From Ischnura elegans (Eukaryota; Arthropoda; Insecta; Odonata; Coenagrionidae): 64,000 bases of DNA. The notes beneath the pieces were generated by a model. That model had not been told where the DNA came from. It saw only the letters and a list, made by a program, of their open reading frames with translations, and did not search any database. This document shows, piece by piece, positions 5,892 to 55,859 of the stretch (position 1 is the stretch's first letter; each line of letters starts with the position of its first letter). The translations under genes were made by a program, and so were the position numbers. Location of the stretch: positions 65,303,585-65,367,584 of the forward strand of contig NC_060251.1 of assembly GCF_921293095.1 (NCBI RefSeq), written 5' to 3'.

Positions 5892-7420
5892 ACTTTTTTT
5901 ATGTTTGGGATGTCGCAATAATTTTACGAGTAAAAATGGAAGAGATTCTTGTGGAAATCCTGTTCTATATTTCCATTGTTCTACTTGCAGAATAATTGGT
6001 ATCTTGTCAGTCAGATGCATGCTAGTGAAAATGTACCAAAGAATGTATCACTGCCAATTTTTTATAAGTGCAAGGAATGTATTTGACTTAGAAACTCATT
6101 GTTTATATGATGCATTTATTTGTGAATGGTTTACTGAAAGCTTTGGTTGGCTCTACTAATCAATTTTCCTTACACTACTTTTGCTGGATATTTTTTAGAA
6201 ACTCATCCGTCATTGTTAAGGACTTATTCGTAACTATTATTTTATTTTTGATATTGCCAAGTGAAATTGCTACATATAGTGGAGGATGATTTTAATATAT
6301 ATACTTGCGAGATTTGGGAGATTGCTCTTCTAAGCTTTAATGTTTTCAATACTGTGTATTGACAGTGGTAGAAACTTATATCCCTAACAAAATTTTTCTA
6401 AGACCAGACACTGGCATTCTTTGAGTTGCCATTTTGGCGTCATATTTTTTCTCATAAAATCTCTGCATCAGTTCCATTGATGAATATTTTATATTTGATT
6501 GAAATGTATTGTTATACTTCTTTTGTGAAACAATTGAATGAAATATTTTTGAATCATGCTTCATAAAATAGGTATGTATAAACAGGAAACTGACTTGCAG
6601 TGCCTAATTAGCTCTTTGAAAGCTGATATGAAAGAATTTGGTGATTTAATTGACAATGATGGCGTGTTAGCCACTCTTTGGTCATTAATTCTTCTCAAAG
6701 CCTCAAAAAACTGCGTACATTTATTGTGTATTATGAAAACTTTTTAGACTCAAACTTAATGATGGTATGAAATGAACATGAAACACTTGTATGCAAGTTG
6801 GTATCATTCAGTATTCCCAAGGGTAGGGCTTTATACCTTGCTCCTTGAGTGTTTTATAGTTACTGTCGATGAAAGTGTACATTCATGGTAGAACAGGTTT
6901 TGTTATGTCTGCCTGCAGATGTTGATGAATGCTCCTCTTTGTTAGGGTTGTGTTATGTTATTCAGACCTGGGTTTGTCTCCCTGTGAAATCCACTGTGTA
7001 TGGTTGTATAACTGTGTTTTTTACATGAGTGGTGATTGGTGGCATTGTGATAAATAATTATTTTTTTCCTTAAAATTGCAAGGGCATCTCTTCTTGTACA
7101 TTGGTCTGTGAAAACTTGAATCAGTATTTTATCAATTATTGGTCTTCTTAAGAAGCCACTTCCAGTTGACTAGTGTGTTAAATAGTGTTATGACTATTTA
7201 TTACCCTCATCTGAATTTTATTTTTGGGATGTGCAATATGGATGAGTGTGGTTTGTTAAGCGCAGCTTTTGTTATGAGTATGTGTATGTTCTTCATAATG
7301 TTGTTATTTATATAACTTATTCCACAAATATAAATACTTTTTGGAACAATCCTTATCTATTTAATTTGTATAAAATATAAACCATTGTCATACGAAAAAC
7401 TCCTGGTAGAACAATTGGTA
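5892..7420 (+). other. FNIP 3' UTR and downstream AT-rich DNA
   Basis: Only short chance frames are present. The proximal part must include the FNIP 3' UTR, but no single AATAAA can be chosen as the cleavage signal by eye. Nothing else recognised. Confidence 0.4.
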
Positions 7421-8319: not shown

Positions 8320-11300
8320 GTCGATTAATAATAATAATTTTATTCACCTGTTTGATCATACAATTAAGTAGACATAGGCTTTGTCAAAAAGAAATCACTT
8401 TAGAACATTTCAATCAATTAGAATCACATAATAGGTTTTACAAAAACAACGAATATACGTATAAGATACGGCAAGTTATCATAGTACGAACTAAAGGAAT
8501 ACATATTTCATAAAATTTACATTACATTCTTGTTGGTTAGAGTAAGAGCAAACTCATCTACAGTGTAGAACACTTCGCTTAGAAGTAGTTGTCTCAGCTT
8601 GATTTTGAATATTTTCAAGGAATTTATATTCCTTAAACTTCCAGGAAGAAGGTTATACAGTTTCACTCCTTTACGAAAAGGCCCTTCACTGCATCTTTTG
8701 GAGTTCCTATGTGAAACATGCAGTTTATCTCTAGATCGTGTTTCATACCTATGACACTCTTAATTTTTCACAAAAGTGTATATTCTTTTTAATAAATACC
8801 ATTAAATGTAGTATATGTATAAAGAGACGCTAAAGTTAAAATTCGAAGATTTGCAAAGTGGATTCGACAGGATTCTCTGTAAGGTAAATTTAGCATGATT
8901 CGAATCACTTTTTTTTAATTAAAAATGTCAGTGCTATGGCTACTGTCACCTCAAAAAATAACACCGTAGGAAATGAGGGACTGAAAATTGGCAAAGTACC
9001 CACATCTTAGAATGTTTAAGGAGGTACTGGTTCTAAGATGCCGTAATTGATATAATACTCGGGATAACTTAAATTTTAGCTCCTCAATGTGAAGGATCCA
9101 TATCATAGTTTTGTCCACAACTACACCAAGAAAAGGAACGTTATTTACAAAGGAAAGTTCAGAGTCCATTAGCTTTACATTTGGTTGATGAGGAGAATTA
9201 AAATTTGAGCAGACTGATTTGTTTAGGTTTACAGAAAGCATACTTCCCTGAAGCCAGTGTTGAAGATTGTGTGTCGTATTATTTAATTTTTTTGCTAGAT
9301 CATGATAGTTTTGTGCCTGTATTAAAATACTTGTATCATCAGCGTATTGTTTTAGACTGCAGACTTTTAACACCAGGCAGACTTTCTGGTGAGTCATTTA
9401 TGTACAAGTTAAATAATAAGGGTCCAAGGATTGAGCCTTGAGGGACACCATGTTTCACAGTTTTTATGCTTGATGAAAAAGTTTGAATTATGCTGGTATT
9501 GGAATCATAGTGAGAAATTTGGGTTATTTGTGTTCTGATGGTGAGGTATGATTTTATCCAGGTGTGTGCAAGTCCAGTGATACCATAGTGTGTTAAACGT
9601 TGAATTAGAAGGTCATGTGTTACTGTATCGAAAGCTTTTATAAGGTCAATATATAATCCCAAAGTCTGATTCCTGCAGTCAATATTGTTCAGAGTATCAT
9701 TTAAAAACTCATAAAGTGCATCTGTGGTTGACTTTTTATGCCTAAAGCCAAATTGGGAAGAGGTAATGGTTGCATTTTTATTTAAAAAATCAAGAAGACG
9801 TTTGCGCATGACCTTTTCAAAAATTTTAGAGAACCCTGAGAGAAGACTAATTGGTCTGTAGTTGTCTGCATCTTTTTTTCCCCTTTTTTAAAAAGTGGAT
9901 ATACTTTGCTCATTTTAAGTTGCTTGGGAAAAATGCCATCAGAGATTGATAAATTACTTAAGTAGGTAAGTACAGATGCTATTCAAGGAATTTAATACTT
10001 AATTATTTTATCTGGAATGTCATCATATTCAGACTATAATTTATTTTGGAGGGACTTGCCAATTTGAAGGATTTCCTGCGTGGTAACAGGGAGAATAAAC
10101 AGGGAATTGTAGTGATTGGAGATAGTTGACTGGATACGATTGGTTGCAGCTTCGTTAGTTTTGTTCAAGGTTTGGAGAATTTTGCCGGGTGTTTCAATGA
10201 AGTGGTTGTTAAAAATATCAGCCACCTTATTTGGGTTGGTTTCCACACCACTGCAATTGATTAATGAAAGGTTTTCTGGCTGTAATCTTGCCTTTTTATT
10301 GCTTTCCCTATTTATAATTGACCAAGTTGTTTTCATTATGTTCGATGAATTTTCTAAAAGTTTATTGTCGTACGATGATTTGCAAAACCGAACTCTTTTT
10401 TGAGAGTATCTAGAAAAAATTTTGTACAAAGTTTCGTTTTCACTATTTTTGCACCACTTGTATTGAGAAAATAACTCTCTTTTAAGTTTGCTAAGGAGGA
10501 TAATTTCAGGTGTTAGACAGCTATTCTTATTTGAGTTACAATTATTTTGTTTACATAATTTTTTTGGGGAAAGTAGTCTCAAAAATATATTGAAATTTAT
10601 TTAGAAAAACCTCTATTTTTGACTCGAAACAATCTGCTAAGTAGACATCTCTCCAGTTTACATTCTGTAGCATACAACCAAAAAGTCGCACTTGGCTGTC
10701 ACTGTAACACCTCTTATAGGTCCACCTATCCTGTGGCCTGTTGATTAATTCAGTTTATTTTTATGCTAATAGCCAAATGATAAGAGAAACCAGGGTCACA
10801 TAAGTTCATACAACAATTATTCTGAGGAATATTAGTTCTAATCTGATCTAAAACAGATTCTTTGTACTTTGATATCCTGGTTGGGGACATGATGTGGTGG
10901 GATAAGTTAAAACAGTTCATTAGATTGATAACTTTCCTAACTTTATAGCATTCTTCATTTGAAAAATCTATGTTAAAATCACCACACAATATCACAGATG
11001 CTTTATCTTTCAGAACTGTTTCAAGCAGTACCATCTGGCGAACGACATATACAGATTACAATAACATTGAAAGAAATTAATTTTACAATCGAAAATTCAA
11101 AATGTTTGTCTAAGGGAATAACATTTTTAACGTTAATTCCTTCGAAAAGAATGCCATTCCTGACTGATATACTCGTTCCACCATTTTTAAACCCAGTTCT
11201 GCAGGAGTAGCTTCCTACAGAAAAACCAAAACATACACAAAGTTTATCTCTTCGTACTTCAACCAATATTCCGTGAAACATAAAATGTTGACTTTGGCAA

Positions 11301-16699: not shown

Positions 16700-18046
16700 T
16701 GCAATATAAGGTAAATGCTCTTGGTATCTCTGGTCCAGTCCAGGATTGGATCATGTCATACCTAAGAGATAGGCATCAAACAGTATGCTATCAATGCAGT
16801 AGCACCAACTCAAGTATCAAATCGAGCCCCATGAAATCCACAAGGGGAGTGCCTCAAGGATCCCTCCTTGGCCCTATACTTTTCCTGCTCTACATCAACG
16901 ATCTCCCTACTCATTTGTCTCATTCTAAAATCACTCTCTATGCGGATGACACCTCGACCATCATTACTGCAAATAATGCTCAAAATATTGTTGACCGGAC
17001 TAGCCTCACAATCAATGAAATGCATCAATGGTGTAAAAGGAACAAACTGATAGTTAACAACCAGAAAACTGTCTTCCTCCAATTCCTACATAAAAACTCC
17101 TTCAAAAAGGATCTTATCCCTCACATAGACAAAATCTCACAATCCTCTGATGTTGACACCACAAAGTTCCTTGGACTTCAAATCTCCACCAATCTTGATT
17201 GGGCACCTCACGTACAGGTCATACTCAAAAAAATCTCCGTGGGTATATTTATGATTAGAAGGTTGTATCCGATTGTATCAATGGATAGGTACTTTAAAAA
17301 TGGTATACTTCGCGAAAATTCATTCCCATATCTCTTATGGCATTCTGTTTTGGGGAAACTCACCTGCAGCAAAAAGAGCCTTTTCAGCCCAAAAACAAGC
17401 CATTAAAGCTATGTACCATGTCCCTATTTGCACTCCCGGTAAAATCTTCTTTGCTAAATCTAAAATCCTCACCCTCCCTTCTTTATATATCCTTACATGT
17501 GCCTGTTTTGTCAAAGCTAACCCTTCCCATTTTCTTCAAAACTCTACCTACCATGATCACCTCACCCGTTCTAGAAATAACATCCATTCCAACCAATATT
17601 CCAGCTCTCTCTGCCTAAAAGGTCCCTACCACTCTGCCTCGATCCTATACAATAAAGTTCCCGATGAAATAAAAAATTGCAAATCACCTTCCGAATTCAA
17701 AAGGAGACTAAAAAGCCTCCTAGCTGAAAAATGCTATTACAGTATTAATGAATACCTGGAGGATGCATTATAAAGGAAATTTTCTAGATGGCAACTTGAA
17801 TGCCTATAATTTTCCATACTTTCTGTTAGTATGTTTATAACCCTCTCAGCTCTGTTTCTAATGTTTTGTACATATAGTGAAATGATTATCTTGAGAATTC
17901 CCAAGAACCTGGAAAATTTTCAATAATGTATGTATGTTGGTATCTCATATTCAATCATGTATGTATGCTGGTATCTCATATTGACTTTAGCCTTGCAGAT
18001 GTATAATTTGCCAATGGTGAAATAAATTTATTATTATTATTATTAT
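16700..18046 (+). mobile_element. 5'-truncated LINE (Jockey/CR1-like), RT and C-terminal part
   Basis: The copy starts inside the reverse transcriptase (VNALGISGPVQDWI), continues with TRGVPQGSLLGPILF and LYADDTSTII, and after one frameshift near 17270-17290 resumes as SHISYGILFWGNS, ending with PYHSASILYNKVPDEIKN and a stop at 17771-17773. The 3' end is a run of TTA/ATT units at about 18025-18046. The RT differs clearly from the LINE at 8320-11500 though the tail type is the same. A 31-bp unit (ATGTATGTATG.TGGTATCTC) is tandemly doubled at about 17920-17985. Dead on arrival: it lacks the endonuclease. Confidence 0.9.
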
Positions 18047-19755: not shown

Positions 19756-22700
19756 TTATGCAATTATCTTTAACGAATTAAAGGCGCTGTATAAAGCATT
19801 TGTTACAATATGCTGGTATTCATTATTGTACACTGTTGAGAATGTTGTCCCCAATATGCTTTCAATGCTGCTGAACGTCCAGCTAATCACCGGGTCGTAG
19901 TAGTTGGTATCGGAAGAGAATTGGCTGCAAAAGAAAGATAATATTTTATAGTAAGAGGTTTTTCAATGTAGCTGTGATTTTCCTCTTAAGCATGTGATTG
20001 CTCTCACCTCATGTTCTCTTGGGACAATCTGAAGTCATAAACTGTCATGTCACTATAACTGACAGTATATTTTATGTGAAAGGAGTAATCATCCACTTTG
20101 GAGTCAATAAATCCATGATGATTAGACTTCGCTATGTCTAACTCAAAGTGACTTCTTATCTGGAAAAAGAGAGAAGTTGGATTGTTTTTAGCTATTTCAT
20201 GCTAGGCTATTTCGTGATGCCAATTTGCCATTATATTTTAATCTATACTAGCGAAGAATTTGATATGGAGCGTAGTATGTATAGTGGACCGTTGTCAACA
20301 CTTGCCAGTGTCTCAAATTTGATAATTTTCCTTTTAAAATTGATTGTTTGAGGCGTAACTTGGTGAAAGCGATTCATAATTAACATTAAAAAGAAGAACT
20401 TTGTGCTTTCACATTAATGTTTATTCACGACCAAACTTGTGTGATCTATTGAAGATTTGTGTGTCTCAAAGTTATTTCAAATTTAACGGTGTATTTTATG
20501 AACATCCCAATGGATTGGCCATGGGCTCTCCTTTATCCCCTCTCCTGGCGGACATGTATATGGACTTTTTCGAAAGGAACCTGTTTTCCCCAATAATCCA
20601 CAGACCAAAAATGTACTATCCTGGCATCGATATGTAGACGATGTGTTTTGTATTTGGACTGGCTCAAAAAGACAACTACAAATGTTCCTATCTTTTTTTA
20701 ATTCTTTGGACCGCAATTTGAATTTCACTTATGAAATAGAAGATGATAACTCTTTCAACTTCCTAGATCTTAAAGTCACTAAGGTCAACAATCACCTCGA
20801 GTTCTCAGTCTTTCGGAAAAACTCCTATATGGACAAAGTGATCCACTCCAGTTCAAGACATTGTTTTTCTCAGAAGTTATCAGCATTTCACAGCATGGTA
20901 TTTGGTCGCTGCATATTCCGATGTCCCCTGCCAATTTCAATGAGGAATTTAACACAATTAAACTAATTTCTAAAAATAACGGATACAACGAACAGCTAAT
21001 TGATAGCTTATATCGTAAACAATTAAAATAACAAGCAGTGGAGAAATTTATGGATTCTGAATGCGACAAGAATCCACGGCCGAGTGGCGTAGAATCCTTT
21101 TTTTTTAAAGGACATCGGGCTGAAGATTTACAAAAAGGTGCCTAAGGATAAAATTAAAGTTGCGTTTTACAATAAATCCAACCTCAAGAACATTCTTTCC
21201 CTCACTAAAGATCCCATCCCAAGAGAAGAAAGGAGTGGGGTGTATAGATTAAAATGTGAATGCAACATGTTGTATGTATGTTGGGCAAACAAGAACAAGA
21301 AACAGGGACAATTTCAAGAACAGGTGAAAGAACACCAAGCCTGCCTGAGAAATAAAAAGACTACTTCACAATTTGCTATACATTTGTTAGATAACAATCA
21401 TCAAAGTGATTTTGATTTTGAAGTGCTTCATTATGAACCTAAAGGACCCAGATTAGACGCTTTGGAACAGATGGAAATTTTGCAGCATGTAAATTCCAAT
21501 GACAACATTGTACACGAATTTTTGTGTGACTCCCACTCCCTTCTTTTAAGCCTCCCACTCCTAAATTCCTGGGCTAATGATATGACAAACTATTCGACCT
21601 CTCTCTCACCTGAACCATGCCCCCTCCACCTGCCATGCCCTCCCTAAGGGAGCCTTCTCCCCCTTAACTTCTTTCATACCATATGACCAAGTTTTTTTCC
21701 CCCTCCCTCTTCTCTGTTGACCAATCCGTTCAACCTAGTTACCTTCCTCCCTACCCCTCCTAGCCTGGTATAAAAGGATGTGATGGACCTCTGAAGAGTT
21801 CACCTGATGATGACGTGTAACGTTGAAACCATGGTCGTGAATAAATATTAATGTAAAAGCACAAAGTTCTTCTTTTTAATGTTAATATTTCTTTTAATTA
21901 TTCTCTCATATGCAATTAATTGAGATTTCAGATATAGGAAAATTTTGAAGAGGGTTTACTCTGCTTTACCTGAAATTTTCAAGATTCAAGGGGATCATTA
22001 AAAATAGAAATAAAGGGAAGGATGTTGGATAAAAAAGAGAGCGAGATAAAGGAGAAAGGGGCTTTCAGGGATTGTCACTAGTCAGGGAAAACAGGGAATG
22101 GAAGGAAAGTTGGGTAATTTACGTGAGTCAGGTCAAATTTAGGGGATCTCATATTTGGTGTCAGGGAAAATGTAAAAATGCAATGAGAATTAAAATTACA
22201 GCTGTGCGGGTTGCTGGTGCTATTGGTAGACTGAGGCCTTGCATCTTTAACGCAGAATCATGCAGTAAATTTGCTTTTGGAATTACAGTAATTTGAAATA
22301 AAACCATTTATCTAGTTGCTGCATTCCATTTTTCTGTTTCTTTGAAATCTTGTAACAATTCGGTTTTATCGATAGAATGAAGAATGATGACCTAAAGCTA
22401 AATAGAAGAGGGAAATCAAATACAGTCTTTAAATTCAAGGATATTATGAATGGGGGAGAAGGAAATTCTGGTTTCTTTTTGATTCATGAATTTATAATTC
22501 TCTTTTTGGGGTGGATGAAAAATCAGAGAGGAAATGCTGAAGTTTTACGGGTGATGGGTGCATTTGAGATAGATAAAATATCAGATAGATTTTGCTTTGG
22601 CGGAAAAGTGTAAATGGGTATGAATCAAAAAGAAGAGGAGGATAAATAAGTGAATAATGAGTAATGAAAGGGAAATGAAAAAAATTGATCAAAAACTTTG

Positions 22701-39294: not shown

Positions 39295-39479
39295 TGCAGC
39301 TCACGGTCTTAGGTTCAGCTGATTATACGGGTGAACCGTTGTCATCACATTATGAACGGCATTGTTACGGAAAATGTAAATAAAAATATCCCAGTCCTGC
39401 CATTTTTGATAACTTGCTCTGGCAGCGTTACTTTAGACAAAAACAAGCATCAAAATTTGAGAGTGTAATCCACGTTACA

Positions 39480-39941
39480 ATGGACATAGAAGATTTTATG
39501 AAACCTAAGGAAAGGAACGTAACAATTCATAACTCGGGCGAAGAAGCTGAAAAGCGAGGACTTAAATGCTCTGAAAATTTGTCACTATCTGACAATGTTC
39601 TCAAACGAATAAATGATTCGGCAAGTGGTAAGAAGATCGATGAAAATGCTGACATTAAGGAAGAAGAAGCTTATTGGAAAAAAAGGATGGATTGCTTAAC
39701 TGAATCACATAAAAAAATTGATCGGGAACATTGTCAGACGGCTAATGATTCGTGGATGGAAAGAACTCGTGCCTACGCTCCGCTAATGGACACGGAACTT
39801 TGCAAAAGACTGACGGATAAAATTACTGCTTGCTATAAAGAAAATCCTGAAACCCCTCTTGAGTGTGCCAAAGTGGTTGAAACATTCACATCATGCGTCA
39901 ATGCTGCTGGTATAGATGCTATCGATAAGATTCACCATTGA
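39480..39941 (+). CDS. MICOS subunit MIC19/MIC25-like twin-CX9C protein (CHCHD3/6 homologue), intronless
   Basis: MIC19 links MICOS to the outer-membrane SAM complex and is imported by the MIA40 pathway. The 153-residue product has the family N-terminal motif in degenerate form (RNVTIHNSGEE, compare RRVTF) and LSLSDNVLKRINDS (compare LSENVIDRMKES). A charged central helix follows, then a C-terminal CHCH domain: CKRLTDKITAC and CAKVVETFTSC, two exact CX9C motifs. ATG 39480 is the first in-frame Met after non-homologous text. The protein starts MDIEDF and so lacks the MG myristoylation signal of CHCHD3. It is one uninterrupted exon, and the frame is intact. The Harbinger right end lies 186 bp upstream. 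It may be an expressed retrocopy or a lineage-specific single-exon gene. Confidence 0.8.
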   Translation: MDIEDFMKPKERNVTIHNSGEEAEKRGLKCSENLSLSDNVLKRINDSASGKKIDENADIKEEEAYWKKRMDCLTESHKKIDREHCQTANDSWMERTRAYAPLMDTELCKRLTDKITACYKENPETPLECAKVVETFTSCVNAAGIDAIDKIHH

Positions 39942-54700: not shown

Positions 54701-55039
54701 ATTTTGTGTGGAATTTGTGCGAAAATTCCATAGAGAGAAAATAATGAAGACCGTGCTCGAGGCGAATGATTTCCTCTCTGAGCTCAATTTGTGCATTGCG
54801 GGTGACTCCGTAAAGTTATCATCACGTCTAGTCCCGGTATACTTAAATTCTGTGCGGAAAAGTGAGAAAATTTCTGTTAGACTTTTGATTGGCCCCCTTC
54901 ATTCTACAAGAATTAAATTCCTTATCACGTCACAGAAATTGCTGCCGTTGATTGGCTCGCTCAAAAAAAAAATAGCTTATATTATTAAATTTCGCACTCC
55001 AACGTTCTATGACATTAGTGTGTCGCGGGATCCTGTGAG

Positions 55040-55340: not shown

Positions 55341-55504
55341 CGATGGTACTTTGACCTAATAACTCATATACTGTTTACATGATCTATTTCTACAGACAGC
55401 AGCGGATCTAGGATAGGGACAAGGGGGATCTCCTCTTATTTAATTATACCGGGACTAGCCGCGGTAATAACTTTTTACGGAGTCACGCGCAAAGCACAAA
55501 TAGT

Positions 55505-55677
55505 GCGAAAAATCCACAGAGGAAAAATCATTCGCCTTGACCGGGATTCGAGCCCGGATCCACAGGGGAGAATGACGCCTCGGTAGCTTAACTGGCTAAA
55601 GCACTCGGCCGGAAATCGAGGGATCCGGGTTCGAATCCCGGTCAAGGCGAATGATTTTTCCGCAGTGGATTTTTCGC
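55505..55677. repeat. Near-perfect 57-bp inverted repeat enclosing a tRNA-like sequence
   Basis: Arms 55505-55561 and 55621-55677 agree at 54 of 57 positions when inverted (outer GCGAAAAATCCAC, inner TTGACCGGGATTCGA). Each arm includes the T-arm and 3' acceptor half of the tRNA-like sequence at 55577-55649, so pol III B boxes point both ways. The 59-base centre holds the remaining tRNA 5' half. Confidence 0.85.
55577..55649 (+). tRNA. tRNA-like sequence, anticodon loop CC-GGA-AA (probable pseudo-tRNA)
   Basis: A 73-base cloverleaf can be drawn: acceptor GCCTCGG / TCAAGGC with one C-A mismatch and one G-T pair; D stem GCTT/AAGC; anticodon stem CTCGG/TCGAG with 7-base loop CCGGAAA; T arm CCGGG-TTCGAAT-CCCGG. 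The triplet in anticodon position is GGA (Ser), but the variable loop is short (GGATC) and position 33 is C rather than U, both unlike a working tRNA-Ser. Its 3' half is repeated inverted just upstream. I take it as a tRNA-derived repeat, not a translation tRNA. Confidence 0.5.
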
Positions 55678-55859
55678 AGGATCTCCTCTCCTGTATATAT
55701 TGGACAACTGAATAAAATTACCATTTAACTAGTGTAAATTGGATACCCAATGAGGGGGAGGGCTATAGCTCCCTTAGCTCCTCTCTGGATCCTCCACTGT
55801 GCACTGAATATCCCACGAGAAGCCTTTAGGGTGTTCTCTGGGCGTAACCAATCACCATC

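Follow-up and report, generated by a model that had tools for sequence, protein, structure and literature searches.

Palindromic insertions of a tRNA-bearing 324-bp retroposon in Ischnura elegans suggest two-sided target priming by a Penelope-like enzyme

The element described here is a small, tRNA-bearing repeat of Ischnura elegans, found in a 64,000-nucleotide (nt) stretch of contig NC_060251.1 (assembly GCF_921293095.1, positions 65,303,585 to 65,367,584 of the forward strand) that is referred to below as the window. At its core lies a near-perfect palindrome containing a transfer RNA (tRNA)-like sequence, as an earlier note on this DNA had claimed from its letters. The inverted repeat was confirmed, with arms of 58 nt each that are complementary at 55 of 58 positions, and the fold of the palindrome strand has an energy of -118.3 kcal/mol, compared with -54.1 on average for shuffled sequences (z -15.8; 0 of 200 shuffles equally low). 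ARAGORN calls a serine tRNA with anticodon GGA at 55576-55650 on the plus strand, and Rfam scores the tRNA-like 73-mer at 55.0 bits (gathering score 29), giving the element a candidate internal promoter of the kind expected in short interspersed elements (SINEs) derived from tRNAs. A genuine expressed tRNA gene was rejected as the sole identity of this sequence: the unit to which it belongs is multicopy and mobile and carries target-site duplications (TSDs).

The element extends beyond the palindrome. Copies retrieved from the genome have 67 more nt on one side, which in the window is the single-copy stretch 55437-55503, and the limits of the whole insertion were therefore set at 55437-55678. 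Shown in Table 1 are the features found within and around these limits, where u denotes a position in the 324-bp unit defined below. A blastn search with the unit matched 55561-55435 to u200-326, and the two arms of the insertion share 3 nt (55559-55561). To represent the empty site, the flanks 55392-55436 and 55690-55807 were joined and searched in the genome, with 40 of 771 candidates scored. Matches crossing the junction were found at 39 other places, 25 of which start within the first 16 query bases, and the window's own locus came back split into query positions 1-45 and 35-163, with an overlap of 11 nt. Since the joined flanks match elsewhere across the junction, the insertion sits inside a multicopy miniature inverted-repeat transposable element (MITE), in agreement with the earlier proposal that it had landed in another transposon, one that the note called hAT-like. 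The tRNA element itself was judged to be neither a hAT element nor a MITE, as its ends are asymmetric. Approximately 600 bp upstream of the main insertion the element occurs once more in decayed form, with a TSD that by eye is imperfect; here u260-319 matches 54787-54844 at 90%.

Table 1. Features of the insertion and its surroundings in the window
Feature	Position	Strand	Evidence
tRNA-like sequence, candidate internal RNA polymerase III (Pol III) promoter, u156-228	55577..55649	+	Rfam 55.0 bits; ARAGORN tRNA-Ser GGA
Left palindrome arm, reverse complement of u257-u200	55504..55561	-	55/58 complementary
Right palindrome arm, end at site B ...TTTTTCGCA	55621..55678	+	
A arm, read as cDNA from site A (u324) to u200 within the tRNA 3' half	55437..55561	-	blastn of unit against window
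A-to-B tail, u324-u258, one side only	55437..55503	-	one side carries the tail in the 62 A/B insertions among the 76 mapped
B arm, read as cDNA from site B (u257) back to u138	55559..55678	+	blastn: u138-257, 98.3%
TSD, left copy GGATCTCCTCT, 11 bp	55426..55436	.	direct repeat; junction-crossing matches of joined flanks
TSD, right copy GGATCTCCTCT, 11 bp	55679..55689	.	direct repeat
Multicopy MITE interrupted by the insertion	55396..55799	.	limits are the usual match extent, query 5-155
Decayed further copy of the element, with the B arm first and the A arm after it	54712..54850	+	approximate limits, arms by eye

The genome searched comprises 1,722,721,009 bp in 110 contigs. Of 1303 candidates for the 173-bp palindrome query, 40 were scored, and every one of them, the window's own place included, was a match; the palindrome is neither a chance product nor unique, and the expectation of a dispersed, tRNA-derived mobile element was borne out. 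An A-box pattern with at most one mismatch gave 2578 matches in the genome and 0 in the control, with the units of tandem arrays counted separately. What is repeated is a non-coding unit of 324 bp that includes the tRNA-like gene, and some copies are arranged in tandem. Numbered from its start at AGTCCAGAG, the unit contains the tRNA at u156-228, a site B at u257 (...TTTTTCGCA) and a site A at u324 (...GGTATACTTTCATA), the two sites being 67 nt apart. On contig C1, where 92 A-box matches in 59 clusters were listed, neighbors on the same strand are spaced by 324-325 bp in 12 of 12 cases and clusters of mixed strand run minus then plus in 21 of 21, both among the matches listed. Single matches make up 35 of the 59 clusters, and 3 of 59 lie on one strand only. 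Arrays can be long; for example, at C2:43032066-43036206 the B arm measures 2118 nt and the A arm 2025 nt, and a single mismatch separates them.

Two features of retrozymes are present in the element, namely a tandem unit within 150-450 bp and TSDs (9-17 bp). The type I hammerhead of retrozymes was not detected: a scan for the core motif found CTGANGA...GAAA on neither strand of the unit, and Rfam returned no known ribozyme at E values up to 5. At 324 bp, the unit is also too short to encode either of the domain sets, reverse transcriptase (RT) and GIY-YIG, of a Penelope-like element (PLE). No poly(A) or long interspersed element (LINE)-type tail was recognized by eye. A literature search found no description of this element, as far as titles and abstract openings show.

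The geometry of insertion was examined in a sample of 76 non-duplicate mapped insertions, after two duplicate loci had been removed (L064, identical to L043, and L107, identical to L035). Forty of these sequences (L009-L048) were selected by likeness to the window, whereas the remaining 36 were not; three later loci (L118-L120) are kept outside the 76. Two-armed, head-to-head inverted insertions account for 67 of the sample, with 8 single-sided and 1 complex, and outside the likeness-selected set inversion is found in 27 of 36. Sites A and B each mark one end in 62 of the 67 two-armed insertions; a single insertion is B-B, none is A-A and four have an unclear end. These A/B insertions are distributed as 37/40 in the set chosen by likeness, 12/16 in the set taken in A-box order from C1 and 13/20 in the set taken from perfect tail matches. 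The single-sided insertions end at A in four cases, at B in three and elsewhere in one, and the later loci add two A/B insertions and one single-sided. The 67-nt tail sits on one side, in either orientation, and either arm, A or B, can be the longer one, depending on the copy. The point at which the arms are joined, which is the center of the palindrome, differs among copies; at the 67 junctions the arms overlap by at least 1 nt in 32 and filler is present in 27. A TSD was found in 57 of the 62 A/B insertions, with a median of 12 bp and a range of 9-17 bp, mostly 11-13 bp (that of L083 was read by eye). A shared 5' end was seen in 10/15 short and 3/10 long insertions, a difference that is not significant (Fisher P 0.11). 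The combination of two RT starts, a tail at one end and head-to-head inversion is the insertion geometry of PLEs, and it is present in 62 of the 76. At the level of sequence, then, most insertions are two apparent cDNA copies of one unit joined 5' to 5', starting at A (u324) and B (u257).

Comparison of the arms strongly suggests that both were copied from the same template. Over 75 insertions (L083 was left out, and no shuffle control was made), positions covered at least twice per insertion show 112 concordant departures from the consensus, 13 of them rare (<6%). For instance, the three units of L105 share variants at u132, u133 and u245 that occur at 3-7% overall, with zero discordance. In the 25 A/B insertions that were not selected by likeness, 13 have their two arm stops within 20 nt of each other, where shuffling gives 4.8 on average (P 0.0002), and the arm lengths are correlated (rho 0.50, P 0.01). 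Where arms stop may also say something about the form of the template. Among long arms (at least 300 nt), 8/18 stop at u240-272, near site B, as opposed to 0 of the 110 shorter ones (just the 56 A arms in that group pass the stretch); stops at u130-136 were seen in 6/54 arms. These groupings are post hoc, as is the idea of a 5' end near u133, which would be compatible with initiation by Pol III. Arms of several turns, together with the post hoc excess of long-arm stops near site B, hint at a circular RNA template, and a long tandem transcript could possibly have served instead.

The target itself carries a motif. When 53 A/B insertions that have a TSD are placed with their A end on the right, adenine is overrepresented at -3 and -2 and thymine at +2 and +3. 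AA at -3,-2 occurs in 19/53 (control mean 5.7) and TT at +2,+3 in 21/53 (control mean 6.6), with both in 5/53. The mirror symmetry of this motif suggests a single nuclease that cuts both strands.

PLEs are present in the same genome. A search for GIY-YIG scored 150 of 2199 candidates, and among the 149 matches listed close pairs (at most 6 kb apart) run minus then plus in 16 of 16. Two families were recognized, at loci separate from the unit, with open reading frames (ORFs) of 840 and 824 amino acids that both contain RVT_1 and GIY-YIG; no relative of the PLE-1 ORF was found in the PDB. Locus L114 is a PLE palindrome of 4522 bp that is 99.8% self-inverted, has a 13-bp TSD and is about 34 nt longer at one end, and L116 is like it with a different 13-bp TSD. 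By eye, the PLE-1 target site at L116 fits the motif described above on both sides and that at L114 on the right side only. Hammerhead-like cores were found in both families by motif scan, and in L114 a core starting at 6194 precedes by about 70 nt the point where the shorter form ends. An Rfam search of the six PLE loci at E values up to 2 returned no hammerhead, and the cores in the PLEs are thus called from the motif alone. As Rfam misses cores that the motif finds, Rfam by itself would not settle the hammerhead question.

Several other observations were made along the way. On C9, the inverted PLE pairs at 105120875-105123946 and 105563519-105566590 have an identical spacing of 2862 bp and are about 443 kb apart, which looks like one segmental duplication. 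Within one arm of the L114 palindrome is a short insertion with 36-bp inverted ends (1106-1537). The window contains a 169-amino-acid ORF at 21138-21647 that by eye resembles the GIY-YIG region of a PLE, with no Pfam match at 0.01; RT fragments (RVT_1) at 9339-9809 and 16753-17406, probably the remains of LINEs; and an ORF at 39414-39941 with a weak, sub-cut-off match to DUF1690 and, by eye, a CHCH-like end.

Comparison with known systems can help to place the element. SINEs derived from tRNAs have an internal tRNA-like promoter, a high copy number and TSDs, all of which the element shares; unlike them, it has a second fixed start, very frequent inversion, 324-bp tandem arrays and a stretch, u1-132, located 5' of the tRNA. 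Sm-alpha of Schistosoma is a SINE-like satellite of about 330 bp with a Pol III-type promoter, and the element resembles it in unit length, promoter type and repetitiveness. Unlike the element, Sm-alpha has an active hammerhead, for which PMC6155905 is cited. Hammerhead retrozymes of about 300 bp are described in PMC7229834 and PMC7761336, with PLEs named as their likely mobilizer, a proposal that in PMC7229834 rests on shared hammerheads, tandem arrangement and co-occurrence. Like these metazoan non-LTR (long terminal repeat) retrozymes, the element has non-coding units of about 300 bp, dimers to multimers in tandem, and TSDs. By definition, retrozymes carry a type I hammerhead and have circular RNA that has been shown; the element has no core on either strand of its unit, and its RNA may be circular.

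As for PLEs, the Anolis element Poseidon/PAc starts reverse transcription in vitro at two adjacent internal sites of its RNA, and cleaves and extends both target strands (PMC11167929). Copies of bdelloid Penelope have pseudo-LTRs (pLTRs) inverted head to head, an optional 31-bp tail on one of them and TSDs of 8-10 bp (PMC3846280). The element is like the former in having two RT starts that give an optional tail, tandem copies and, on the reading favored below, cutting and extension of both strands, and like the latter in its head-to-head inversion, palindromic center, tail at one end and TSDs. It is unlike PLEs in its length, in coding for neither RT nor nuclease, in its tRNA-like gene and in lacking a hammerhead core; 67 nt separate its start sites (30-40 in PLEs) and its TSDs are mostly 11-13 bp, as opposed to the 8-10 bp of bdelloid Penelope.

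Taken together with the sequences, in which two arms begin at two fixed sites, the target motif is symmetric and units stand in tandem, this leads us to a probability of roughly 75% that the element is a PLE-mobilized, tRNA-bearing non-autonomous retroposon whose palindrome results from two-sided target priming on one RNA. A Penelope-like enzyme with RT and GIY-YIG domains, probably a dimer, would make cuts about 12 bp apart in the two strands of an AT-rich target. Both target 3' ends would then prime on one RNA, at sites A and B, both RTs would copy towards the RNA 5' end, and the two cDNA ends would become joined. Because both RTs copy the same RNA, the product would be a head-to-head palindrome with the A-to-B tail on one side only. 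In the case of a circular or multimeric RNA, the RTs could circle repeatedly and leave 324-bp tandem arrays. The tRNA, placed upstream of sites A and B much like the hammerhead-like motif in PLEs, may provide a Pol III promoter and perhaps also sites for processing. The PLE enzyme, its action as a dimer and the use of one RNA per event are what we infer from these data. The inversion is best read as being made anew at each insertion, with the inverted arm a second cDNA, and the element as retrozyme-like and copied from multimeric or circular RNA, with no detected hammerhead. A bolder version, to which we give slightly less than an even chance, is a retrozyme-like element without a ribozyme, in which the tRNA takes the place of the PLE hammerhead, a circular RNA hijacks the Penelope RT, and palindromes are formed by two RTs copying one circle from two fixed starts.

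A number of observations weigh against mobilization by a PLE through two-sided priming. The B-B insertion (L039), the four with an unclear end, the eight single-sided and the complex one do not have the A/B form, and outside the likeness-selected set the A/B form falls to 25/36. The unit shows no similarity to six PLE loci of the two families examined; the distance from A to B is 67 nt in the unit and about 34 nt in PLE-1, and no clean TSD was found in the second PLE family (L113, L117). Discordant departures from the consensus exceed concordant ones (249 vs 112), which we read as later mutations. When all 62 A/B insertions are pooled, 13 have arm stops within 20 nt of each other, compared with 17.3 on average after shuffling, and there is no excess; in our view this is because the query fixed both positions in the set selected by likeness. 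The tRNA-like 73-mer has an acceptor mismatch in the Rfam alignment and its minimum free energy fold on its own is not a cloverleaf, both of which also speak against a functional tRNA, as does the serine anticodon in a sequence that, by eye, has no long variable arm. Furthermore, TTTTT runs directly 3' of the tRNA would be expected to halt Pol III early.

Three rival explanations can be set against two-sided priming by a PLE enzyme. In the first, the element is a LINE-dependent tRNA SINE subject to L1-style twin priming, whereby the first strand starts at the RNA 3' end (site A) and site B is primed internally and opportunistically. The tRNA head, the TSDs of 9-17 bp and the 5' inversions would all suit this, as would the four of eight single-sided copies that end at A, yet three of the eight end at B, which is a fixed site, and inversion is very common (67/76). 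Twin priming is also at odds with the mirror motif at both target borders, with arms that overlap and can span several units, and with the lack of a poly(A) or LINE-type tail on inspection by eye; moreover, the PLE copies here share the geometry, in a comparison confined to PLEs. We regard it as unlikely. Self-priming, in which the RT folds back on the first cDNA or uses an antisense transcript, is offered in PMC3846280 for head-to-head PLEs, whose palindromic centers are attributed to it. It would yield palindromes with matching variants and fits the arm overlap of at least 1 nt at 32/67 junctions, but a fold-back from one start gives no second fixed start at B and would not produce A arms both longer and shorter than B arms, both of which occur, making this account very improbable. 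Hardly credible is a palindrome inherited as a unit, whether in a foldback or MITE-type DNA element or through a SINE master already carrying the inverted half, as in the earlier note's one-time inverted duplication of a tRNA 3' half: many copies are alike around the palindrome and whole palindromes carry target duplications, for which that note had proposed a test, but the two ends are different sites, with a 67-nt tail on one side in either orientation, the centers vary among copies, the TSD is not of fixed length, and non-inverted and tandem 324-bp copies exist.

Two questions of this field are concerned here: the route by which PLEs insert, and what mobilizes small ribozyme-bearing RNA circles in animals. 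The high-copy footprint described here, with its A and B ends, mirror motif, same-template arms and rolling arms, fits the behavior of PLEs in vitro. Two-sided priming on one RNA would give a simple account of inverted, tailed PLE copies, in place of antisense self-priming. As an insertion footprint that can be counted over many copies, it could be used as a test on any genome with retrozymes or PLEs.
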